Assembly: GCA_022842465.1 (NCBI GenBank)
Contig: JALHPN010000019.1
Coordinates: 1 to 64,000 of the forward strand
DNA length: 64,000 bases
Direction of reading: 5' to 3'
DNA from: Polyangiaceae bacterium
GTDB lineage: Bacteria > Myxococcota_A > Polyangia > Polyangiales > Polyangiaceae
This document shows positions 4,433 to 55,610 of the stretch, one piece after another. The number at the start of each line of letters is the position of its first letter. Position 1 is the first letter of the stretch. Below the pieces are notes generated by a model, which saw only the letters and a list, made by a program, of their open reading frames with translations, was not told the origin of the DNA and searched no databases. Made by a program: the position numbers and the translations under genes.

Positions 4433-4658
4433 GGCGGATGCCTAGGGCGGCCTCGCGCAGCGGACAAGGTGCAGAGGAGGCCGTCTCGTCCGGTCAGAGC
4501 CGATGCCTGACGACGCCGAGGGCTCCCGCTGCGGTGTAGACGGCGTGGCGGAGTCGCGCCCCTGGTCGCGCCTGGCGCGGGTTCTCGGCTGCAGTGCGGC
4601 GGCTCCTCGTGAAAACGGGGGGCGACCGCGCGGCTCAGTCTTTGCTGCGCGACGGCGC

Positions 4659-37457: not shown

Positions 37458-37494
37458 TTCACTCCGAGTGCACATCCCCCGACCACTCGGTGAA
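37458..37494 (+). promoter_or_regulatory. Putative activator-binding inverted repeat upstream of peptide 1
   Basis: TTCACTCCGAGTG (37458-37470) and CACTCGGTGAA (37484-37494) form an imperfect inverted repeat centred about 116 bases before the predicted transcription start. The half-site CGAGTGC is the same as one half of the palindrome at 44644-44656. The position is typical for sigma-54 activator sites. This is inference from sequence alone. Confidence 0.45.
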
Positions 37495-37565
37495 GAGCGA
37501 CCGACGAGCGCCGCGGGGTGGGCAGCGCACCGCTCCGAGCTCGCGAATCTCGCGGCCCGAGGCGC

Positions 37566-37581
37566 TGGTCCGGCCCGTGCA
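37566..37581 (+). promoter_or_regulatory. Putative sigma-54 promoter of peptide 1
   Basis: TGGTCCGGCCCGTGCA has GG and GC at the exact -24/-12 spacing (10 bases between), with 5 of 7 matches to the -24 box and 4 of 5 to the -12 box. The predicted start is near 37592, giving a 45-base leader before the ATG at 37637. Confidence 0.45.
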
Positions 37582-37636
37582 ACCGCTCCCCTCACGGTCG
37601 ACGCGGGTAGCGCCGGTCCAAACCAGGAGACGCGAG

Positions 37637-37825
37637 ATGAACAAGGGTCTGAACGAGGTCGTCGCGGTGACGGAGCTCTCCGACGAGCAGCTCGAGACGG
37701 TGACGGGCGGGGAGGTCGGCGCCGTCGCGACGGCGCTCCGGAGCCACTACCGGGAGGTCATGAACATCGCCGATGCCGACGGCTTCCACGGCGCGAGCGG
37801 CGCGAACTGGATGTACAACGGCTGA
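37637..37825 (+). CDS. Double-glycine-leader precursor peptide 1 (bacteriocin-like)
   Basis: A 62-residue peptide is preceded by AGGAGA six to seven bases before the ATG. Residues 1-25 form a leader with the pattern L-S-D-E-Q-L-E-T-V-T-G-G, the classic site cut by C39 peptidases after GG. The predicted core of 37 residues starts EVGAVATALRSHYREV and ends GASGANWMYNG. It has no Cys, so lanthionine or disulfide chemistry is excluded, and it has one Trp and two Tyr near its ends. The C39 exporter is 3.3 kb away on the other strand. A strong hairpin follows at 37851. Confidence 0.8.
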   Translation: MNKGLNEVVAVTELSDEQLETVTGGEVGAVATALRSHYREVMNIADADGFHGASGANWMYNG

Positions 37826-37850
37826 CGGAGCCCGCGGACGAACGGAACGT

Positions 37851-37878
37851 GGGGTGGTCCCGGCGACGGGGCCACCCC
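37851..37878 (+). terminator. Hairpin terminator after peptide 1
   Basis: GGGGTGGTCCC (37851-37861) pairs over 11 bases, with one G-T pair, with GGGGCCACCCC (37868-37878) around a 6-base loop. ATCCATTT lies just after. It lies between the convergent peptide 1 gene and the ABC transporter gene ending at 37922 and could serve both strands. Confidence 0.6.
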
Positions 37879-37921
37879 GCGATCCATTTAACGCCTCGAG
37901 AGCGCCGAGGCCGCGCGCTCG

Positions 37922-39943
37922 TCAGGCGACCTCGATCACCGCCGCGCCGCGCCGATCTTCCCACGCCACGACGCGGGCGCCGCCCACCTCGCGCGCCGAC
38001 GCGTCGTGGGCCACGGCGATCACGGTGCGTCCGCGGAAGAGGCCTGCGCCGCCGAGCCGCGCGCGCATCGAGAGATCCATGTGCGCGAGAGCCTCGTCGA
38101 GGAGCACGATCGGCGTGGCGGATGCGACCGCCGCGGTGAGGAGCACGAGCTGGCGCTGGCCGCTCGACAGGCTCGCGCCGGCCCCGGTCACCACGGTCTC
38201 CATGCCCATACCCCACGACGCCGCCAGATCGGCCAGCCCCGTGGCCCTCGCGGCCGCGAGCACGCGCCGCTTGTCCCTGTTCCGCGAGAGGATCTGGAGG
38301 TTGTCCATGAGTGAACCCGGGAAGAGCGCCGCCTGCTGCGGGATGTACGTGACCAGGCCGCGCGCCTTGGTCGCTTCCATGCCGAACACGAGCGCGTCTC
38401 CGCGCGCGGGCGCGAGGAGCCCGGAGAGGATGCGGAGCAGAGTGCTCTTGCCGGCGCCGGACGGCCAGGAGAGCAGCACGGTCTCACCGGCGCGGACGAC
38501 GAGATCCCGGCCTGACAGAACCCACGGCGCCGCGTCGTCGTAGCGGAACCAGACGTCCCGCAGCACGAGCGCGGGCGCACGCGAGTCGGTGGGACGGGGA
38601 GCGCCCGGCCGTTCGGCCTCCGCCACCAGGACCTCGTCGGCGCGCTCCACGTCGCTTCGCAGCTTCGCGAGCGCGGTCGGCACCTGGGCCAGGGTCTGCG
38701 CGCTCGCCATGAAGCTCGCGCTCGCCTGCACGGCCGCCATCATGTCCGCGACGCCGGCGGAGCCCGCGAGGCACCGGCGCGCCGCGAGCAGGAGGACCCC
38801 GCCGAAGACGAAGGAGCAGAGGGAGGCGAGCAGGGTCGTCGCCGTCGAGGTCTGGAGCCGCACCGCGAGCGCCGCCCCTTGCTCGGACAGCGCGCGATCG
38901 AGCCAGCGCGCCACCATGCGGCCCTCGATGCCCTCGGCCTTCACCGTCTCGATGCTCGAGAGCGTCTCGTAGAGGCCCTGCTGGGTCGCGCGCGAGCGCG
39001 CGAGGAGCGTCCGGCGCAGCGCGAGCCCCCGGCTCCCCGAGAAGGCGCCGGCGATCACGACGACGAGGCCCCCGAGCGCCGCCAGCGCGCCGCTCGCCGG
39101 ATCGATGCTGACGGTGTAAGCGAGGTAGCCGACGCCGAGCACGGCATCGAGCGCCTGCGGCGCGATCGTGGGGAGCGCCTCGGCGGCGTTCGCCGCGGAG
39201 CCCGCCGCCTGCTGCACCGCGCCGACGTCGAGCGCGCGCAGGCGGGCGAACGGAAGACGCAGCATGTGCGAGACGACCTCGAGCGAGGCTCTCGCGGACA
39301 GCTTCGTCGCGAGGTAGCGAAGCGCGCGTCGCCGCAGGAACCCGACGCCCGCGAGCTGGAGGCCCGTGAGCACCGTGCCCGCGACGAGGACGTGGAGCGT
39401 GCTGGTCGCGCGGTCGGGCAACGCCGAACCGAGCGCGGCCCGCGTCACCATCGACGAGGTGAGGCCGAGCGCGAGGACGACGACCGCGAGCAGCGTCGCG
39501 AGGGCGACCGCGCGGGTGGCGTGAGCCTCGGCGCGCCAGAGGAGCGAGAGCCGACCGAGGAGCCGCGTGCCGGGCGGCGCGGGAGGCCCGACGACGAGCG
39601 TCGCGAGGGGCCTCGTCGCGTCGCGTGGACCGATTCGCAGCGTCGTGCCGTCGGCCTTCTCGACGACGACCCCGCCTGGACCCTGCGCGACGACGAGCGC
39701 CACCGCGCCGTCGTCGAACCCCACGAGCGCACCCACCTCGACGAACCGGAGATCTCCCGGGTCGAGCCGCGTGACCCTCGCCTCGAGGCCCTGCTGCTCC
39801 GCACACCGCGCGAAGGACGTGAGCGAGAGGTCGCCTCCGCAGGCGTCGGCGAGGGCCCAGGGATGGGCGCGGACACCGTGCGCGGCGAGCACCTTCTGGA
39901 GGGGGATCAGCGCGTCGACGCGGGCAGGGCGAACGGTGCTCAC
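37922..39943 (-). CDS. Peptide-type ABC transporter with degenerate C39-like domain
   Basis: This 673-residue protein has an N-terminal domain of about 120 residues that follows the C39 fold (LIPLQKVLAAHGVRAHPWAL), but the catalytic Cys, His and Asp are all replaced. Five to six membrane helices follow (ATLLAVVVLALGLTSSM, VLVAGTVLTGLQLAGVGF, LAALGGLVVVIAGAFSG), then an ATPase domain. That domain has Walker A WPSGAGKST (the first Gly of GxxGxGKS is Trp), signature LSSGQRQ, Walker B PIVLLDEALAHMD and a switch His in VAVAHD. It resembles transporters that act beside a peptidase-containing partner. It follows peptide 2 in the same direction. Confidence 0.85.
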   Translation of the reverse strand: MSTVRPARVDALIPLQKVLAAHGVRAHPWALADACGGDLSLTSFARCAEQQGLEARVTRLDPGDLRFVEVGALVGFDDGAVALVVAQGPGGVVVEKADGTTLRIGPRDATRPLATLVVGPPAPPGTRLLGRLSLLWRAEAHATRAVALATLLAVVVLALGLTSSMVTRAALGSALPDRATSTLHVLVAGTVLTGLQLAGVGFLRRRALRYLATKLSARASLEVVSHMLRLPFARLRALDVGAVQQAAGSAANAAEALPTIAPQALDAVLGVGYLAYTVSIDPASGALAALGGLVVVIAGAFSGSRGLALRRTLLARSRATQQGLYETLSSIETVKAEGIEGRMVARWLDRALSEQGAALAVRLQTSTATTLLASLCSFVFGGVLLLAARRCLAGSAGVADMMAAVQASASFMASAQTLAQVPTALAKLRSDVERADEVLVAEAERPGAPRPTDSRAPALVLRDVWFRYDDAAPWVLSGRDLVVRAGETVLLSWPSGAGKSTLLRILSGLLAPARGDALVFGMEATKARGLVTYIPQQAALFPGSLMDNLQILSRNRDKRRVLAAARATGLADLAASWGMGMETVVTGAGASLSSGQRQLVLLTAAVASATPIVLLDEALAHMDLSMRARLGGAGLFRGRTVIAVAHDASAREVGGARVVAWEDRRGAAVIEVA

Positions 39944-40009
39944 ACCTTAAAGGGCCGAAGCCCGCTCTCTCCGAAGAGAGGCGGGATCGGTCGAGCACGA
40001 AGCGCCGCG

Positions 40010-40183
40010 TCAGCGCCGCGGGCGCGCGAAGGGCCCCTCGAAGGGGTTGCCGTCTCCGGGCATGTCCGGGGGCAGATCGAGGACAGGCCCGCCGCCGGTG
40101 ACGGCCGCGAGCTCGGCATCCGCGAGCTCCGTCGTCTCGTTCGTCTCGTCGTTCGTCGCAGACATCTGGGGCTGAATCATCAT
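40010..40183 (-). CDS. Double-glycine-leader precursor peptide 2 (Pro-rich core)
   Basis: A 57-residue peptide is preceded by AGGAAAGGA; ATG codons at 40183 and 40180 are both possible starts. The leader contains T-E-L-A-D-A-E-L-A-A-V-T-G-G, matching the consensus of peptide 1 (hydrophobic residues at -4, -7 and -12 from GG). The core of about 26 residues (GPVLDLPPDMPGDGN, then PFEGPFARPRR) is rich in Pro, Gly and Asp and has no Cys, Ser or Thr. That rules out lanthipeptide or thiazole chemistry. It lies 66 bases before the ABC transporter gene 37922-39943. Confidence 0.75.
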   Translation of the reverse strand: MMIQPQMSATNDETNETTELADAELAAVTGGGPVLDLPPDMPGDGNPFEGPFARPRR

Positions 40184-40231
40184 CGGATCCTTTCCTGGGG
40201 GGCGTTGCCGCCGTCGTTCGAAGACTTCCAT

Positions 40232-40247
40232 TGCAGCCCGTAGGCCA
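40232..40247 (-). promoter_or_regulatory. Putative sigma-54 promoter of peptide 2 and its transporter
   Basis: On the minus strand TGGCCTACGGGCTGCA places GG and GC 10 bases apart, as required at -24/-12. Four of the -24 box bases and four of the five -12 box bases match consensus. The predicted start near 40221 gives a 38-base leader before the ATG at 40183. Confidence 0.45.
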
Positions 40248-40309
40248 GGCCGTAAGTGAAGGAAACCAAGTGACTCGTGAGCGGAGCGGACGCGCTGGAC
40301 GGTCGCTCT

Positions 40310-40331
40310 GCACTTCGTGCGCACCGTGCGC
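40310..40331 (-). promoter_or_regulatory. Two adjacent dyads upstream of peptide 2, putative activator sites
   Basis: GCACTTCGTGC (40310-40320) and GCGCACCGTGCGC (40319-40331) are adjoining inverted repeats centred 94 and 104 bases upstream of the predicted start. The first shares GCACTTCG with the palindrome at 44644-44656. They are candidates for binding by the nearby FHA-type activator. Confidence 0.4.
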
Positions 40332-40355
40332 GGCCGAGGTGCGCTCGGGGGCGGC

Positions 40356-41102
40356 TCAGGGCAACGCCTGGTTCATCATCACCTCCTGCCGCAGCATCTC
40401 CTGCGTGAAGAGATCGAGCGGATTGAAGGGGAGCGAGATGTAGTCCCCGAGCGTCCCGGACGAGTCCTTCGCGAAGAAGATCACGTTGGCGCCCATCAGC
40501 TGACAGCCGTACGTGCACGTTCCCATCGCCGTGATGTTCACCGTCGCACCGGTGGAGCTCGCCTTCACGGTCGTCGCGCCGTCGGCGTAGTTGGTGATGA
40601 ACGTGCCGTCCGGCCAACCGAGCGTCACGAAGTCGTGGCCACGGTAGACGGTCACGCGGAGGCCTTCCTCGGTCTCGTAGCTCAGCGATCCCCCGCTCCC
40701 GTACTGGAAGGTGGTCGTCTTGATGACCTGGCCGATCTCTCGGCTCGTCGTGTAGGCCTCGACCACCACGCGCTCGATCTGACCGACGAGCTCCCACTCC
40801 CCGACGGACTGTGCGGTGTTCCAGGCGTCCCAGGCGGCCGTGACCGCGCGTCCGGCCCACTCGTACGAGATGCGGCGCTCGATCTCGAGCTGCTCGAAGC
40901 TCCCGCCGCTGAAGCGGGCTTGGAGCGCGGCGTTCCAGTTCTGCCGGGCGGCCTGGTTCCAGCGAATGGCCTCGTTCATCGAGTTGCGCGCGTTCTGGAC
41001 GATGTGGGGGCGCAAGCTCGGTTGCGCCTCGACCCGCGGGCTGCTCGTCGTGATCGCGGCGATCGCGAGGGCAGCGAGGAATCCTAGGATGGTCCGCTTC
41101 AT
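40356..41102 (-). CDS. Secreted protein of the peptide-export operon
   Basis: This 248-residue protein has a Sec signal (MKRTILGFLAALAIAAITTS). A helical region rich in Asn, Trp and Ala (NSMNEAIRWNQAARQNWNAA) is followed by a beta-rich half (VTVYRGHDFVTLGWPDGTF), a Cys pair (MGTCTYGCQLMG) and a helical tail. Its ATG overlaps the stop of the C39 exporter gene (ATGA), so it is made with the exporter. It could be an immunity, chaperone or receptor-like partner for the exported peptides. No family was recognised. Confidence 0.8.
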   Translation of the reverse strand: MKRTILGFLAALAIAAITTSSPRVEAQPSLRPHIVQNARNSMNEAIRWNQAARQNWNAALQARFSGGSFEQLEIERRISYEWAGRAVTAAWDAWNTAQSVGEWELVGQIERVVVEAYTTSREIGQVIKTTTFQYGSGGSLSYETEEGLRVTVYRGHDFVTLGWPDGTFITNYADGATTVKASSTGATVNITAMGTCTYGCQLMGANVIFFAKDSSGTLGDYISLPFNPLDLFTQEMLRQEVMMNQALP

Positions 41103-43210
41103 GGGGTGACTCCGCTTCTGTGGTGGTGGTTACGTGCCGCCGGGACGACCCGACCCTTGTCGAGGACGAGGACGCGGTCCGCGAGGGCGACGGCCGAGGG
41201 CCGGTGCGCCACGATGACCATCGTCGCCGGGACCTCGGCGAGCGCCGTCTGGATGCGCTCCTCGAGCCCGGCGTCGAGCGCGCTCGAGGCCTCGTCGAGC
41301 AGCAGCATCGACGGCCGCCGCGCCAGCGCGCGCGCGAGGAGGAGGCGCTGGCGCTGCCCGCCGGAGAGGCGCGTCGCGCCCGTGCCGAGGCACGTGAGCG
41401 CGCCGCGTGGGAGCCCCTCGACGACGTCCTCGGCGCACGCCGCAGAGAGGGCGTCGCGCACGTCGTCGAGGGTGGCTTCGGGCGAGCCCAGCGCGACGTT
41501 GTCGAAGACGGACTCCTCGAAGAACGAGCCTCCCGCGAGCACCGCGCCGATCGACGAGCGGAGGGCTCCGAGGTCGAAGTCGGCGAGGTCGCGCCCGTCG
41601 ATCAGGATCCTCCCCATCGAGGGCTTCACGAACCCGAGGAGGAGCTTCAGGATCGTGCTCTTGCCAACCCCCGAGGCGCCGACGAACGCGACGCGCTCGC
41701 CGGGGGCGATGTGGAACGAGACGTCGTCGAGCAGCATGGGCCCCTTCGTTCCGTAGCGGAACGAGACGTTCTCGAACGTGATCGCCCCGAAGACGCGCTC
41801 CGGCGCCCACGTGCCCGTCGGCTCGGGCGCGGTCTCGAAGACGTCGTCGACGCGATCGAGGATCGGGCCGAGGTCGGCGAGGTCCTGGAAGGCCTGGACG
41901 ACGCGCTGGAGCGGCGGACCGAGGAGCGTCTGGAGCGCGAGGAAGCTCGTCAGCGTCCCGAGCGTCATCCGATCGCCGAGGACGGCCTCGCCGCCGACCC
42001 CGAGGACGAGCGCGGAGCTCACCGCCCCGAGGATCGCGAGCGCGTGCTGCGAGGGCTCGAGCGCCATGGCGACGTCGACGTTCGCGTTGAGCTGGTGCGC
42101 GCGTGCCGCGGCGTACCGCTCGAGGAGCACCCCTTCGGCGCCGAACGCCTTGGACGTCTCGGGATCGGCGAACGCATGCACCAACGCGGCCTGTGCGCGC
42201 GCGGACGCGATCTGTCGCGTCGCCGCCGCCGGGCGCCCCCGTCGCCGCGCGAGCACGGTCACCGCCACCGCGAGCAGCTGGAGGAGGACGACCGCGCCGC
42301 CGAGCCGGAGATCGTAGAGGACCATGAGCGCCCCGTAGGCTCCGACGAGGACGAGATCGAAGCCTGCGACGAGGACGCGCGAGAAGGTCTCACGCGCCGC
42401 GAGCAGGGCAGAGACGCGGTGGAGGAGGTCTCCGACCCCACGCTGGGCGAAGAAGGCGGTCGGCAAGGACACGAGGTGCTTCACCAGCGCGGCCGACAGC
42501 CCGACCTCGAGGCGCGCCTCGATGCCGCCGAGGATGCGCTCGCGCCCGATCTGGAGGGCGGCGCGGAGGACGAGGAACAGCGCGAAGGCGACCGCGAGGA
42601 TCCCGAGCCAGCGCTCCTGTCGCGGCCGGATCACGAAATCGACGACGAAGCCCGACGCCGCAGGGATGAAGAGCCCGAGCGCCTCGAGGAGCAGCGCGCT
42701 CGCGGTCGTGACGAGCAACGGAGGCAGTGCGCCGTCGAGGAGGCGCCGGTAGGTCGCGGCGCCGCGGAAGACGCGTCGCCGCGTGGCGAAGCCCGGGCCG
42801 GGCAGGGCCGTGACGGCGACGCCCGTGAAGGCGCGCTCGAGCTCCCTTCGCGAGACTCGCCGCCGCCCGAACGCCGGATCGACGAGATCCGCGCCCTCGT
42901 GGTCGATGCGCTCGAGGACCAGGAAGTGGTTGAACTCCCAGTGCAGGATCGCCGGCAGCGGGAGAGCACCGAGACGCTCGACGCGCTCCACCTTCAGCGC
43001 CTTGGTGACGAGCCCGTAGCGACGGGCGGCCTTGACGACGTCGAGCGCCGAGGCGCCGTCACGCGAGACGCCGCATGCGGCTCGCAGCTCGGCGAGCGGG
43101 ACGTGGCAGGCGTGATGGGCGAGCACCATGCCGAGGCTGGCGGCGCCGCACTCGGTCACCTCCATCTGGGGCACGAACGGAACGCGCTTGCGGAAGGGGT
43201 TCACGCTCAT
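41099..43210 (-). CDS. C39-peptidase-containing ABC exporter (PCAT)
   Basis: This 703-residue protein has an N-terminal C39 peptidase with the full triad: Cys21 (QMEVTECGAASL), His95 (WEFNHFLVLE) and Asp111 (LVDPAFG). It cleaves double-glycine leaders in the cytosol during export. A six-helix membrane domain follows (about 165-440), then an ATPase domain with Walker A GASGVGKST, signature LSGGQRQR and Walker B MLLLDEASSALD. The ATG overlaps the stop of the HlyD gene by 4 bases, and its stop overlaps the next ATG. It is the evident processing and export machine for the two GG-leader peptides. Confidence 0.95.
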   Translation of the reverse strand: MSVNPFRKRVPFVPQMEVTECGAASLGMVLAHHACHVPLAELRAACGVSRDGASALDVVKAARRYGLVTKALKVERVERLGALPLPAILHWEFNHFLVLERIDHEGADLVDPAFGRRRVSRRELERAFTGVAVTALPGPGFATRRRVFRGAATYRRLLDGALPPLLVTTASALLLEALGLFIPAASGFVVDFVIRPRQERWLGILAVAFALFLVLRAALQIGRERILGGIEARLEVGLSAALVKHLVSLPTAFFAQRGVGDLLHRVSALLAARETFSRVLVAGFDLVLVGAYGALMVLYDLRLGGAVVLLQLLAVAVTVLARRRGRPAAATRQIASARAQAALVHAFADPETSKAFGAEGVLLERYAAARAHQLNANVDVAMALEPSQHALAILGAVSSALVLGVGGEAVLGDRMTLGTLTSFLALQTLLGPPLQRVVQAFQDLADLGPILDRVDDVFETAPEPTGTWAPERVFGAITFENVSFRYGTKGPMLLDDVSFHIAPGERVAFVGASGVGKSTILKLLLGFVKPSMGRILIDGRDLADFDLGALRSSIGAVLAGGSFFEESVFDNVALGSPEATLDDVRDALSAACAEDVVEGLPRGALTCLGTGATRLSGGQRQRLLLARALARRPSMLLLDEASSALDAGLEERIQTALAEVPATMVIVAHRPSAVALADRVLVLDKGRVVPAARNHHHRSGVTP

Positions 43211-44538
43211 CCCTCGAAGAGCCGCTTGAGAGGTGCGAAGAGCAATGAAGCCAGACGCCGCTTGCGGAGGACGAAGCGCGCCGTGACCTGGCTGCCGGGA
43301 CGGAGCAGGCGATCCAGCCTCCGCACGGCGTCGTCGTTCGCGATTTCCAGCTCGACGCGGTAGGTCGGGCCGTCGAGCTTCCCCTCTCCGAGGGCGTCCC
43401 GGACGTCGTCGGGGGTCGCGAGGTCCGTGGCGATGCGCGCGACATGCGCCGTGAGGCCTCCGAACTCGCCTTCCGGGAGCTGGTCGAGCTCGATCCGCAC
43501 GTCGGCCCCCTCACGGAGGAACGCGCGATCGGCCTCGTGGAGGAACACCACCACCTGGCGCGGTCCGCCCTCCGGAACGAGCCGCGCGAGCGCCGCGCCG
43601 ACCGTGACGGCGTCCCCGGTCTTCACCACCATCGCCTCGAGTCGCCCCGCGCGGGGCGCGCGGACCTCGGTCTGCGCGAGCTCGTACGCGAGCGCGTCGC
43701 GGCGATCGCGCGCCTTCTTCGCCTCCGCCTTCCTCCGATCGAGCTCGCTCGCGAGCTCGGCCGCGATGTTCACGGCCTGGAGGCGCGTCGCGCTGATCTC
43801 CTCTTCGAGCTGGATGGATGTCCGCTGCGCGGCCGCGAGCTCGCCCTCCGGCCCCGCGCGGTCGAGCGCGGGAGCGAGCCCCTCGGCGACGAGCCGGTCG
43901 AACGAAGCGAGGCGCTCGTGGAGCTTCGCGACCGACGCGTTCTGGCTCTGCATCCGCTTGCGCAAGAGACCTGCGCGCTGCCCGAGCAACGCGAGGCGCG
44001 CCGCCTGCTCCTTGTCGCGTCGCGCGAGGAACGTCGCCACCTCTTCGTCGGCGCGGGCGATCTGCCGCTCGACCTCGAGCAGCGCAGTCTTGGTCGTCGT
44101 CGAGTCGACGCGCACGAGGAGCGCGCCGGCCGGCACCATGTCCCCCGAGCGTGCACCGACGTCGAGGACCACCCCGCTCGTCTGCGAGGAGACCGTCTGC
44201 ATGCCGCCGGCGACCCGGAGAACGCCGCGGCCGCGCGCCGTCTGGTCGACCTCGACGAGGAACGTGGCGAGGAGGAGGAGCGCCGTGAGCGCGCTCGCGA
44301 CGCCCACGAGTCCCCGCACCCACGGCGGCGCCACGCGGAGCACCTCGCTCTCGCGCATGCTGGCGAGGTGGGCCGACACGGCCTGCTCGCGGAAGATCGC
44401 GCGCTTCGAGGGCGTCGCGGGGCCTCGGACGATCGGCGCGACGGAGATCCGGAGCATCCGCTCCGTCTGCGGCGGCAGCTCCTTGCGCGGGCGCCTCGGC
44501 GCCACCGGCCTCTGGATCGTCGGATCGTCGTGGTGCAT
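43207..44538 (-). CDS. HlyD-type adaptor of the peptide exporter
   Basis: This adaptor has up to 443 residues from the ATG at 44538. An ATG at 44457 (MLRISVAPIVRG, with GGAG before it) fits better with the predicted sigma-54 start near 44545. It has one membrane helix (GVASALTALLLLATFLVEV), a lipoyl half (QTSGVVLDVGARSGDMVPAG), a long coiled-coil (LHERLASFDRLVAEG and beyond) and the second lipoyl half (RAPRAGRLEAMVVKTGDAVT). It would link the C39 exporter to an outer-membrane channel, which is not encoded here. It is the first gene of the three-gene operon. Confidence 0.9.
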   Translation of the reverse strand: MHHDDPTIQRPVAPRRPRKELPPQTERMLRISVAPIVRGPATPSKRAIFREQAVSAHLASMRESEVLRVAPPWVRGLVGVASALTALLLLATFLVEVDQTARGRGVLRVAGGMQTVSSQTSGVVLDVGARSGDMVPAGALLVRVDSTTTKTALLEVERQIARADEEVATFLARRDKEQAARLALLGQRAGLLRKRMQSQNASVAKLHERLASFDRLVAEGLAPALDRAGPEGELAAAQRTSIQLEEEISATRLQAVNIAAELASELDRRKAEAKKARDRRDALAYELAQTEVRAPRAGRLEAMVVKTGDAVTVGAALARLVPEGGPRQVVVFLHEADRAFLREGADVRIELDQLPEGEFGGLTAHVARIATDLATPDDVRDALGEGKLDGPTYRVELEIANDDAVRRLDRLLRPGSQVTARFVLRKRRLASLLFAPLKRLFEG

Positions 44539-44556
44539 CCGTCGAAGAGCTCCTGC

Positions 44557-44571
44557 GCAACGGCGGTGCCA
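44557..44571 (-). promoter_or_regulatory. Putative sigma-54 promoter of the exporter operon
   Basis: On the minus strand TGGCACCGCCGTTGC matches the -24/-12 consensus TGGCACG-N4-TTGC at 10 of 11 defined positions with exact spacing. The predicted start near 44545 leaves only 7 bases before the ATG at 44538, so translation may begin at the ATG at 44457 instead. Confidence 0.55.
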
Positions 44572-44643
44572 GCCACGATCCCACGGCAATTCCCGAGGCT
44601 CGGCGGCGCGTATGCAGCCTTTCGCGCTCCTCTGCGGGGACTT

Positions 44644-44656
44644 GCACTTCGAGTGC
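44644..44656. promoter_or_regulatory. Palindrome between exporter operon and kinase gene
   Basis: GCACTTCGAGTGC is a perfect 5+3+5 inverted repeat. It is centred 105 bases upstream of the predicted start of the exporter operon and 70 bases upstream of the kinase ATG. Its halves recur upstream of both peptide genes, which makes it the best candidate site for a shared activator. Confidence 0.5.
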
Positions 44657-44719
44657 GGAAAAGATCGGAGAGACCGTTGCCCCCTGCCGCCTGAACCCGC
44701 AGAGTGCGGGGATCACGCG

Positions 44720-46279
44720 ATGGCGGGTGCGGTCGAGGAGCTCGAAGGGCAGACGCTGGGCGGGCGGTACCGTCTCGAGCGGGTGATCGGTCGAGGGGGC
44801 ATGGGGGCCGTGTTCGAGGCGCTCCAGCTCGACCTCGGCCGCAAGGTCGCCGTCAAGGTCCTCCTCGACGTCGATGCGCGCACGGTCGAGCGCTTCCGTC
44901 GCGAAGCCCTCGCCGCGAGCGCGCTGACGTCGCCGCACGTCGTCTCGGTCCATGACTTCCAGGTGTCGCCGGACGGCGTGCCGTTCCTGGTCATGGAGCT
45001 GCTCGAAGGGTGCTCCCTCGCGAGCCTTCTCCGCCAGCATCGCGCGCTCCCTGTCGGGCGGGCGAGCCGCATCGCCTCGCAGATGCTCGTGGCGCTGGAG
45101 GCCGCCCATCGCGCAGGCATCGTGCACAGGGACATCAAGCCGTCGAACGTGTGGCTCGTCTCGGGGCATGGCATCGAGGACCACGTGAAGGTGCTCGACT
45201 TCGGCATCGCCAGGGTGCTCCGTCCCGACGCCGTGCCGCTCACGACGGCGACCACGCTCCTCGGGACCCCCGCCTACCTCGCGCCCGAGCAGATCCGCGG
45301 GCTGGAGGTCGATCCCCGCACCGACGTTCACGCCGTGGGCGCCGTCCTCTACGAAATGCTCGCCGGCGAGCGCCCGTGGAAGGGTGAGCGGCTCGCGCTG
45401 AACCTCGACATCCTCGGTCGCGTCCCGCCGCTCCTCCACGAAGTCGTGCCGTCGGTGCCGCTGCCGCTGGCCGTGGTCGTCGCCCGGGCGATGGCAAAGG
45501 ACCCCGAAGCGCGCTTCGCGCGGGCCGACGACATGCGCCACGCGCTCGCTCCGTTCGTGCTCGCTCCCCTGGTCTCGGCGCCCACGCTGAACGCGTCGTA
45601 CGAGCTGACGGCGACGCCGCCTTCGCCGATCGCGCCCGAGACCTCGCGGACGTCGTCGCCCTCGCCGGCGCTTCGATCTCACGTCGTGTTCGGGATCAGC
45701 GCGGCGGCGGCCTTCGCCCTCGCCGCCGCCGTCTCCGGAGCGCTGCTCTGGCGCGCGCGCGCGGTGCAGGTCAATCCCGTACCGGCCTCGTCGGGAACAC
45801 CTCCGCCGAGCGCGGCGGCTCCCGCGAGCGTCTCCGCGTCGGCATCCGCGCCGATCGCGTCGCCGTCGTCGGCGTCACGGCCCGCGCCTCTCGTCCCTCC
45901 CCCGAGGCCGATGGCAGGCGCGAAGGAATGCGAGTGCGAGACCGCGAGTGGCGGCAGGCTCTGTCCGACGCGGATGCCGCCGAAGTGCGAGTGTCTCGTC
46001 GACGACAGCGTCCGGCTGTGCCCGACGCCGCCCTCGCCCGACGGCGCGTGCGGGGGGCAGCGCCTCTATCTGAGCCTCCCGTATGGAGGGCCCGACAAGA
46101 AGACAGGAGGCGCTTGCACGGGGTACGCCGACGGGACCGCCGGATCGGCGCCCGTGTCGGGGACGCTGTCCTGCGAGGTCTGCTACGAGCGCCAGAAGGT
46201 CGCCGGGGAACACGGCGACCCCTGCGCGGGCGTCGATGCCTGGGGCGCTCCGGGGCGCGGGAAGCTCGTCTGCCGATGA
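44720..46279 (+). CDS. Membrane Ser/Thr protein kinase with Cys-rich extracytoplasmic domain
   Basis: This 519-residue Hanks-type kinase has a Gly loop GRGGMGAVFE, ATP Lys46 (VAVKVL), catalytic HRD with Asp138 (IVHRDIKPSN), DFG at 160-162 and GTPAYLAPEQ. One membrane helix (about 322-344) leads into a Ser/Ala/Pro linker and a Cys-rich C-terminal domain of about 110 residues (KECECETASGG, KCECLVDDS, GTLSCEVCYE), which may sense an outside signal. It is divergent from the exporter operon and convergent with the FHA activator gene. CGATCA-N9-TGATCG at 46282-46302 may be a shared terminator. Confidence 0.93.
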   Translation: MAGAVEELEGQTLGGRYRLERVIGRGGMGAVFEALQLDLGRKVAVKVLLDVDARTVERFRREALAASALTSPHVVSVHDFQVSPDGVPFLVMELLEGCSLASLLRQHRALPVGRASRIASQMLVALEAAHRAGIVHRDIKPSNVWLVSGHGIEDHVKVLDFGIARVLRPDAVPLTTATTLLGTPAYLAPEQIRGLEVDPRTDVHAVGAVLYEMLAGERPWKGERLALNLDILGRVPPLLHEVVPSVPLPLAVVVARAMAKDPEARFARADDMRHALAPFVLAPLVSAPTLNASYELTATPPSPIAPETSRTSSPSPALRSHVVFGISAAAAFALAAAVSGALLWRARAVQVNPVPASSGTPPPSAAAPASVSASASAPIASPSSASRPAPLVPPPRPMAGAKECECETASGGRLCPTRMPPKCECLVDDSVRLCPTPPSPDGACGGQRLYLSLPYGGPDKKTGGACTGYADGTAGSAPVSGTLSCEVCYERQKVAGEHGDPCAGVDAWGAPGRGKLVCR

Positions 46280-46284
46280 TGCGA

Positions 46285-47643
<1,359 letters not shown>

Positions 47644-48242: not shown

Positions 48243-49562
48243 TCAGGCGGCGCGCGCCGCGCGCTCGAGCGCCTCGAGCTCGCCGACGAACCGCTCGGCG
48301 AGCGCGCGACGGCGCGGACCCGTCGGCACGCCGAGGCGGCGCGCGGACACCGGATCGAGCGTGTCGACGTGGTCTTCGACGAGCGCGCGCGCGGCCTCGC
48401 TCCTCGCGGCCCGGACCCGAGCGACCGCGCTCGCGTCGAGGACGCTCATGGCCCACGCGTCGATGTCCCATGCGAGCTCGCCGTGTCGGATCTCGTCGCG
48501 CGCGATGGCCGTGAGGACGCGCCGGATCTCCGGGTCGCCGGCGCGCTCCGCCTGCGCGAGTCCGACGAGCGCGCCGAACGTCTCGAAGACGCATCCCTCG
48601 ACGGCGTTCTCCCTCGCGAACGCCTCGAGGTCGCGCTCGTCGAAGGCCGTTGGAACGAGGCGCGCCACCGAGGCGCCGTGGAGCTCGGCGAGCCTCCCCA
48701 TCGCCTTCGCATGCCGTACCTCGTCGCGCCGCGCCCGACGTGCGCGCTCGCTCAGCCGAGCGGGCGCACCGAAGGCGTCGAGCTCGTTCGCGACGCGATC
48801 GAACGACGCCACAGAGGCCGCCTCCAGGTACGCGACCTCGGCGAGCCACCTCCCGACGACCGAGCGCGCGTCACTCCTGTACCGCACGAGCCCCTCCGGG
48901 CGTCGGCCGATGCACAGGCCCTCCTCGCGGCTGGTCACCGAGCTCTCGAGGACACGCACGTCGCCGGCCCGGTCGACCGCGAGGAGGTACGCCGTCGTCT
49001 CCACCGGAGCGCAGATCTTCGTGAGCCGCGTGGCGAGGACGCGATAGCCCTCGCCGCTCTCGCCGACGCCGCCACGCTCGGCGTCCCCGCAGCGGGTGGT
49101 GTACCCCGCGAGCGTTGCCGCGACGACGGCATCTTCGGGCGTGTCGACGGGCGAGAGCCAGGACTTCACCGCGTCCTTCGTGCGCAGGACCTTCAGGCCG
49201 CTCGCGTCGGTGACGATCACGATCTCGCGCTCGCGCACCTGGACCACTTGCCCGAACAGCGAGCCGTCGCCGTCGGCGATCGCGACCGCGGCGTAGTCGG
49301 CTTCGCACGTCGCGCGGTCCACGGCCGTGGCGCATCGCGTCCCGCGCGACGACGACCGGACCTGGGAGGAACCGTCCCCCTGGCTCCGGACCTCGACGTA
49401 GTCCGCGGGGACGGCGCTCGTGACCCCCACGAGGGGCTCGTCCGCCGGCGCGCACGCGATCGGCGCGAGCCCGGAGGTGTCGACGCCCTCGTCCGCGGCG
49501 CACGCGGCGGAGGCCAGGGACGAGACCAGGATGCTTCGAAGGGCGCGGCTCAACGAGCGCAT
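48243..49562 (-). CDS. Secreted protein with C-terminal ferritin-like domain
   Basis: This 439-residue protein has a signal sequence (SLSRALRSILVSSLASAAC) and an N-terminal Cys-containing region of about 190 residues. A ferritin-like four-helix domain follows (about residues 230-400) with two E-x(n)-ExxH-type pairs: VAYLEAASVASFDR with RDEVRHAKAMG, and VEGCVFETFGALVG with RDEIRHGELAW. These supply the carboxylate and His ligands of a diiron site. Ferritin-like domains store iron or act as oxidases; which applies here is unknown. It appears to lead a three-gene run with the acetyltransferase and the FHA activator. Confidence 0.85.
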   Translation of the reverse strand: MRSLSRALRSILVSSLASAACAADEGVDTSGLAPIACAPADEPLVGVTSAVPADYVEVRSQGDGSSQVRSSSRGTRCATAVDRATCEADYAAVAIADGDGSLFGQVVQVREREIVIVTDASGLKVLRTKDAVKSWLSPVDTPEDAVVAATLAGYTTRCGDAERGGVGESGEGYRVLATRLTKICAPVETTAYLLAVDRAGDVRVLESSVTSREEGLCIGRRPEGLVRYRSDARSVVGRWLAEVAYLEAASVASFDRVANELDAFGAPARLSERARRARRDEVRHAKAMGRLAELHGASVARLVPTAFDERDLEAFARENAVEGCVFETFGALVGLAQAERAGDPEIRRVLTAIARDEIRHGELAWDIDAWAMSVLDASAVARVRAARSEAARALVEDHVDTLDPVSARRLGVPTGPRRRALAERFVGELEALERAARAA

Positions 49563-49716
49563 GATGCCCGAGAGAGCACCAAGCGTGCCAGCGGCGGCGC
49601 GCGCTTTTTCTCAAGGCGTCGCGCGTCGTATGCCTGATCGTCGCGTCATGGGTCGCCGGCTGCGGCTTCGATTCCGCCGCGGGAAGCTCGATCTCCGAGG
49701 CTGCGTAGACCTCGCC

Positions 49717-50082
49717 ATGATCATCTGGCGCGGCTGGGGAATCCTGCCGTTGATCTTCGCGGTCCTCGGGCTCGTGGCCGGCCTCGTCGCGGCCGACCAC
49801 GCGGGCCTCGTCGCTCCGAGGGGTGTCGGCGCGTCCGCCGGCAACGACTTCGCGAACCCGTACGTCGCGATCGCCCTGCTCGTGATGGCCCTCGTGAACT
49901 GGCTGCTCGGGCGACGCCTCAACGATGCCTTGGACCGCCGCGAGGGCTCCCCGCGCGGCGTCGTCGACGACCAGGAGCGCGGGTACCTCCGCCACTCGCT
50001 CGCCCACGTCCGGTTCGAGTACTGGTCCGTCCCGATGGTCCTCGGCGCGGCGGTCGCGTTCGCCGGCTTCGTCGGCCGCTGA
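49717..50082 (+). CDS. Small inner-membrane protein
   Basis: This 121-residue protein from the ATG at 49717 has three hydrophobic segments: GILPLIFAVLGLVAGLVAA, YVAIALLVMALVNWLLG and VPMVLGAAVAFAGFVG. The motif MIIWRGWGILP is typical of small uncharacterised membrane proteins. Earlier in-frame ATGs would add a basic, non-membrane leader and overlap the ferritin-like gene promoter. The function is unknown. The gene at 50117 follows by 34 bases. Confidence 0.8.
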   Translation: MIIWRGWGILPLIFAVLGLVAGLVAADHAGLVAPRGVGASAGNDFANPYVAIALLVMALVNWLLGRRLNDALDRREGSPRGVVDDQERGYLRHSLAHVRFEYWSVPMVLGAAVAFAGFVGR

Positions 50083-50116
50083 CCGGCGCCGCGCGGGAGC
50101 GTACGCTGTGTGACCG

Positions 50117-55536: not shown

Positions 55537-55610
55537 GCGACGCGCCGGAGCAGACGGCGTGCCAGAGCGCCGAGCGCGCGATCCTCGGCGAATCGTCTGC
55601 TCGTGTGAAC

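Follow-up and report, generated by a model that had tools for sequence, protein, structure and literature searches.

The 64,000-nt window analyzed here (contig C19; draft genome of 9.57 Mb in 431 contigs) probably carries a small sigma-54 regulon for peptide export, in which a Ser/Thr kinase, an FHA-domain activator, a dyad and RpoN would act at the hlyD-PCAT-U248 unit, at pepA and, less surely, at the pepB-ABC2 unit. The genome that surrounds this locus suggests a second, more general feature: it appears rather likely from the positions of the motifs that sigma-54 polymerase in this class routinely starts at the start codon or 1-3 nt before it, which would yield leaderless mRNAs for a large activator-controlled gene set rich in secreted proteins and lipoproteins. 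The regulon reading draws on the encoded proteins and the sites, on how seldom the sites occur together, and on the fact that a paralogous module has retained them.

The genes in question are arranged in the order pepA, ABC2, pepB, U248, C39-ABC, hlyD, Ser/Thr kinase, FHA activator. The pepA (37637-37825, plus strand) and pepB (40010-40183, minus strand) genes encode peptides of 62 and 57 amino acids with double-glycine leaders (ELSDEQLETVTGG and ELADAELAAVTGG, respectively). Comparison of pepA with NF038167, CTB family bacteriocin, gives 29.6 bits, which does not reach the cut-off of 32, and profile comparison of pepB yields no family match above cut-off. ABC2 (37922-39943, minus strand) is an NHLP ABC2-like ABC transporter without a match to the C39 domain. 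The C39-peptidase ABC transporter (PCAT; 41099-43210, minus strand; PF03412, 2.9e-31) is predicted to cleave double-glycine leaders; its score against TIGR03796, NHLP bacteriocin exporter, is 538.6 bits, below the equivalog cut-off of 853.3. The membrane-fusion protein gene hlyD (43207-44538, minus strand; PF13437) heads a unit that also includes PCAT and U248 (40356-41102, minus strand), a protein of 248 amino acids with a signal-peptide-like N-terminus for which no family was recognized and whose predicted structure (mean pLDDT 52.5) is of too low confidence for a structure-based search. The combination of a C39-ABC transporter, HlyD and GG-leader peptides resembles known systems of double-glycine peptide export (NHLP-type; CTB bacteriocins), but the NCBIfam equivalog cut-offs are not reached here and no modifying enzyme was recognized among the scanned genes of the cluster.

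The Ser/Thr kinase gene (44720-46279, plus strand; PF00069, 1.7e-44), which is divergent from hlyD, encodes a protein with a single hydrophobic segment identified by hydropathy (residues 322-344) and a cysteine-rich C-terminal part. In agreement with the initial annotation, the adjacent gene (46285-47643, minus strand) encodes an FHA-domain enhancer-binding protein that combines an FHA domain (PF00498), a sigma-54 activator AAA+ domain (PF00158) with the GAFTGA motif and a Fis-type HTH (PF02954), and contains GRSxxC and SREHA motifs. Its FHA domain may bind phosphothreonine produced by the adjacent kinase. The genome encodes one canonical RpoN, with the RpoN box ARRTVAKYRE, and approximately 95 strong PF00158 activator domains. 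We infer the following mechanism: the membrane Ser/Thr kinase would respond to a signal and thereby control the state of the FHA activator, which in turn would bind a CACTC(G/C)(A/G)AGTGCA dyad situated roughly 60-100 bp before -24/-12 promoters, driving RpoN polymerase at hlyD-PCAT-U248, pepA and, less surely, pepB-ABC2; and the exporter products would cut and export the two double-glycine peptides as their putative substrates. Regulons of this kind are known, including those of natural-product genes of Myxococcus xanthus (PMC7910581), and the proposed one is similar to these in RpoN, the -24/-12 promoters, the AAA+ activator with GAFTGA and the putative upstream activator site; it differs in that the activator contains an FHA domain and adjoins a Ser/Thr kinase, that the predicted hlyD leader is only about 7 nt long, and that the dyad is specific to the locus and its paralogue.

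Among the three promoters, the one upstream of hlyD is well supported by sequence and is the best of the set. All six sequence strings quoted in the initial annotation are present, each at its position and on its strand, and the GG-N10-GC spacing indeed precedes all three units; the hlyD element, described there as near-consensus, is the sole good matrix match of the three (TGGCACCGCCGTTGC, a -24/-12 element at 44557-44571, minus strand; 11.9 bits, rank 7 in the window). The palindrome GCACTTCGAGTGC, the proposed activator site, is located at 44644-44656, and its exact sequence occurs twice in 9.57 Mb, in the window and on contig C214. A search of GTDB genomes with the 18-mer palindrome produced seven matches in unrelated taxa, about the number expected by chance, although the nearest records might lie outside the scan. 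The hlyD ATG (44538) follows the T of the TGGCACCGCCGTTGC element by 33 bases. Transcription starting near 44545 would leave about 7 nt before this ATG; a Shine-Dalgarno-like AGGAG (44554-44550) would then fall outside the transcript, which weighs against the regulon reading.

Contig C214 (L060) encodes U248 (71% identical), the kinase and the activator (87% identical) in the same order as in the window, but is devoid of C39-ABC and hlyD; the missing segment corresponds to 41119-44543 of the window, a difference that may reflect either gain here or loss at C214. This is the only other copy of U248 found, a search in relatives having yielded none. Past the module, positions 49658-50084 of the window are 80% identical to L060:6147-6573, so that more DNA was duplicated than the kinase and activator genes. 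In the intergenic DNA between U248 or hlyD and the kinase gene, 81% of the aligned bases are identical. The C214 copy has CGGCACACCCGTTGC in place of TGGCACCGCCGTTGC, with GGCAC-N5-TTGC retained, and GCACTTCGAGTGC lies within a 29-bp block that is identical in the two copies (for a run of this length, p is about 0.0003 under independent sites). The distance between the element and the palindrome is shorter in C214 by 21 bp, that is, by two helical turns, and the promoter there is located 54 bases before the U248 ATG, which would give U248 a leader with a Shine-Dalgarno sequence. In other genomes, no comparable promoter was seen upstream of the hlyD relatives of G012 and G014, and no convincing match to pepA was found in relatives. 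G012 has a double-glycine peptide gene divergent from hlyD (L033:2113-2271), with GCAC/GTGC repeats but no clear sigma-54 site between the two. In G067, two strong sigma-54-like sites (L034:10496 and 10574) form a divergent pair upstream of a putative regulator and of a gene distantly related to hlyD; this pair was rejected as a conserved hlyD promoter given that one of the sites points to an unrelated gene.

The elements upstream of the peptide genes are weaker. The pepA element (TGGTCCGGCCCGTGCA, 37566-37581, plus strand) scores 9.9 bits (rank 19 in the window) and the pepB element (TGGCCTACGGGCTGCA, 40232-40247, minus strand) 10.3 bits (rank 11); each is weak alone. The predicted leaders, about 45 nt for pepA and 37 nt for pepB, both contain a Shine-Dalgarno sequence. 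Upstream of pepA, the dyad CACTCCGAGTG (37460-37470) matches the hlyD palindrome at 11 of 13 positions with equal arm spacing. Upstream of pepB, the arms of GCACTTCGTGC (40310-40320) are 2 bp closer than at hlyD, so that only the right half, CGAAGTGC on the minus strand, is comparable; the match is again 11 of 13 but the weakest of the three, with the left half absent. Thus, the proposal of inverted repeats shared by all three units holds for hlyD and pepA, which have the full dyad (that of pepA being moved to 37460-37470), but at pepB only for a half-site. The distances from the center of the palindrome to the GG, about 80 bp for hlyD, 69 bp for pepB and 101 bp for pepA, replace the 94-116 bases given previously.

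It is conceivable that only the promoter of hlyD (and of the paralogous U248) is real, whereas the elements before pepA and pepB arose by chance and these genes use other promoters. Both elements score below 10.4 bits and deviate from TGGCAC, only a half-site is present at pepB, and 15-18% of the intergenic regions equal these scores. The initial annotation was right in considering the two promoters unremarkable by themselves, but for a reason that could not be seen at that stage: the genome contains numerous sigma-54 sites that look genuine, most of them next to a start codon. The joint occurrence of promoter and upstream site argues to the contrary. The gene-based background for this comparison comprised 1.66 Mb of the 9.57 Mb (the window and 80 stretches of 20 kb), with genes called by a simple codon-usage finder, whereas raw pattern searches covered the whole genome; the sigma-54 matrix, on which the bit scores of the sites depend, is approximate, having been made after the published consensus and not fitted to this organism. 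Sites of at least 9.9 bits are found in about 18% of the intergenic upstream regions on the sense strand and in 5% on the other strand. With a gap of at least 100 bp, 95 of 625 intergenic regions have such a sense site, and a half-site located 60-135 bp upstream is present in three of the 95, exactly those of hlyD, pepA and pepB, compared with 1.4% of comparable windows. The genome scan proposed initially, run on this sample, thus indicates that joint matches are not common upstream of other genes; the half-site motif was picked beforehand from these same three regions, which makes the test partly post hoc, and with hlyD taken as an independent reference, two informative regions (pepA and pepB) remain. 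The best matches to the full palindrome among the regions are 13, 11 and 11 of 13 (hlyD, pepA and pepB, respectively), followed by 10, and 11 or better is reached by 1.3% of random 90-bp windows. The CACT-N3-AGTG pattern occurs five times in the sample, three times inside genes and twice in intergenic DNA, upstream of pepA and hlyD. These results make the chance explanation of the pepA and pepB elements unlikely. The recognition helix GIAYRTLLA[R/K]LAENGH is common to the activators of the window and C214 and unlike those of four other FHA activators compared, in keeping with a dyad that is found between genes nowhere else in the sample.

Genome-wide, the dyad combined with GGN9TGC at 50-110 bp occurs in eight places, namely pepA, hlyD, C214 and five others, compared with 123 matches for the reversed pattern, an imperfect control because its composition differs. 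The match on contig C1 (70044-70144; L170:4045-4145), consisting of a CACTCGGAGTGCA dyad and TGGATCGTTAGCTGCA between genes for a WecG-type transferase and a Ser/Thr kinase, is a possible further member of the regulon. On contig C2 (78179-78268; L171:4180-4269), a CACTCCGAGTGCA dyad and a strong sigma-54-like CGGCACGACGTATGCT precede a 256-aa gene without a known family; judged by sequence, this match, like that on C1, is plausible. The matches on C116 and C184 (inside genes) and C31 (not before a gene) were judged to be due to chance. The perfect 15-mer TGGCACN5TTGC was rejected as a genome-wide marker of the regulon, with nine occurrences versus ten of the reversed pattern, that is, no enrichment.

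An alternative interpretation of the palindrome is that it acts as an operator for the kinase gene, which is divergent from hlyD, with either the activator or another factor binding to it, and that its proximity to sigma-54 elements is incidental. Indeed, the kinase start is 64 bp away from the palindrome in the window as well as in C214, and the joint match on C1 likewise has a sigma-54-like site on one side and a kinase gene on the other; the pepA dyad, however, has no neighboring kinase, and the sigma-54 elements on the opposite side are also kept in both copies, so that we regard this interpretation as rather improbable. The palindrome may act on the export genes, on the kinase gene or on both. 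A further GAGTGC half-site is located just before the kinase ATG (44701-44712) and is kept in C214, compatible with possible autoregulation. Of the single sigma-54 regulon of three units proposed initially, the hlyD unit, conserved in C214, and pepA, with a dyad nearly unique to the cluster and its paralogue, are supported by sequence, the support for pepA being fair; pepB, with its half-site and weak promoter, would belong less surely.

In the 1.66 Mb sample, GG-N10-GC sites cluster 27-32 bases before start codons (counted from the T of TGGCAC), where they are found for 50 of 533 genes with intergenic upstream regions versus 1.4 expected (9-bit threshold); in the -30 to -21 bin, there are 36 sites of at least 11 bits on the sense strand and none on the antisense strand. 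In a matrix-free search for spaced trinucleotide pairs, GGC-N8-TGC at -27 ranked first (26 versus 0.56 expected). The possibility that these sites are not promoters, but either a different kind of element close to the start codon or a product of erroneous start calling, has to be considered given that they are known from sequence alone and that the starts come from a home-made gene finder. Against this, GGCAY-Nk-TGCW is enriched only at k=6, the sigma-54 spacing (31 versus 1.2; other spacings 0-1), and the raw pattern GGCAY-N6-TGCW-N11-15-ATG, counted independently of gene calls, occurs 188 times in the genome compared with 13 for the reversed pattern and 26 when the ATG is displaced by 15. 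Moreover, the signal peptides of the start-adjacent genes open at the called ATG, and the motif allowed one wrong start call to be corrected: the strongest element in the window (55549-55564, minus strand; 17.5 bits) is followed exactly 28 bases on by an ATG (55536) that opens a lipoprotein-like signal (MRCFVLPLLACSQFAC), whereas the start first called was 214 bases from the element. A non-promoter origin of these sites is accordingly the least probable of the alternatives considered here. A further example is the element at 49575-49590 (minus strand), 28 bases before the ATG of 48243-49562; the start-adjacent sites of the window (T of the element at 4631, 11539, 12993, 22994, 49590, 55564, 60608 and 62481) precede mostly lipoprotein-like or secreted proteins.

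The start-adjacent genes have distinct properties, with an ATG start in 56 of 61 (328 of 483 others), a hydrophobic N-terminus in 48 of 61 (192 of 483; p=7e-9), a lipobox in 27 of 61 (95 of 483) and a Shine-Dalgarno-like stretch in only 13 of 61 (202 of 483). The gene finder rewards Shine-Dalgarno sequences and so works against the last result. Where the site is at -28 or -27, all 31 start codons are directly preceded by C; the bias at this position was rejected as evidence for leaderless starts by itself because it is present in all genes, more than 90% of those called in the 1.66 Mb sample having C or G at -1, with A or T nearly absent and a bias of start calling possible. In Campylobacter jejuni, the sigma-54 motif is located 8-13 nt before mapped starts (PMC3847290), and with this spacing the predicted starts here fall no more than about 4 nt from the ATG. 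The hlyD gene, with its predicted leader of about 7 nt, would lie at the edge of the start-adjacent group and pepA and pepB outside it. Many genomes of the class are enriched in the raw pattern relative to its reverse (for example, 110/7 in G350, 128/16 in G420, 87/4 in G359 and 139/17 in G006), a small number of sites with this arrangement is also seen in samples of G167 and G070, and the rest of the phylum has mostly little or none; the enrichment is missing also in some members of the same family (24/27 in G024).

Among 801 sampled genes with 60-bp gaps, 86 have a TANNNT motif at -15 to -12 relative to the start codon, where about one would be expected per position. These sites would form a sigma-70-type leaderless class, so that leaderless expression is probably general here. 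The resemblance to leaderless mRNAs with a -10 element abutting the ORF, known from Deinococcus-Thermus (PMC12340547, where the motif survey yielded mainly RBS and -10 motifs) and C. jejuni (PMC3847290), lies in the core promoter, which in each case has a set place immediately before the start codon, and in the lack of a leader; the difference is that here, besides the TANNNT class, a second class uses -24/-12 elements. No description of sigma-54 leaderless promoters as a class was found in the literature searched, subscription papers aside. As far as this literature shows, the start-adjacent promoters are new, whereas the local regulon is of a known kind.

Sigma-54 genes are the textbook case of tight, activator-controlled transcription. 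If hundreds of them are leaderless in these bacteria, activator control would be coupled to non-canonical translation initiation. Genome annotation would be affected as well, true starts being located about 28 bases after TGGCAC, and so would attempts to express genes of myxobacteria in heterologous hosts. The proposed local regulon offers a concrete set of kinase, FHA activator, site and promoter, with a natural paralogue for comparison.
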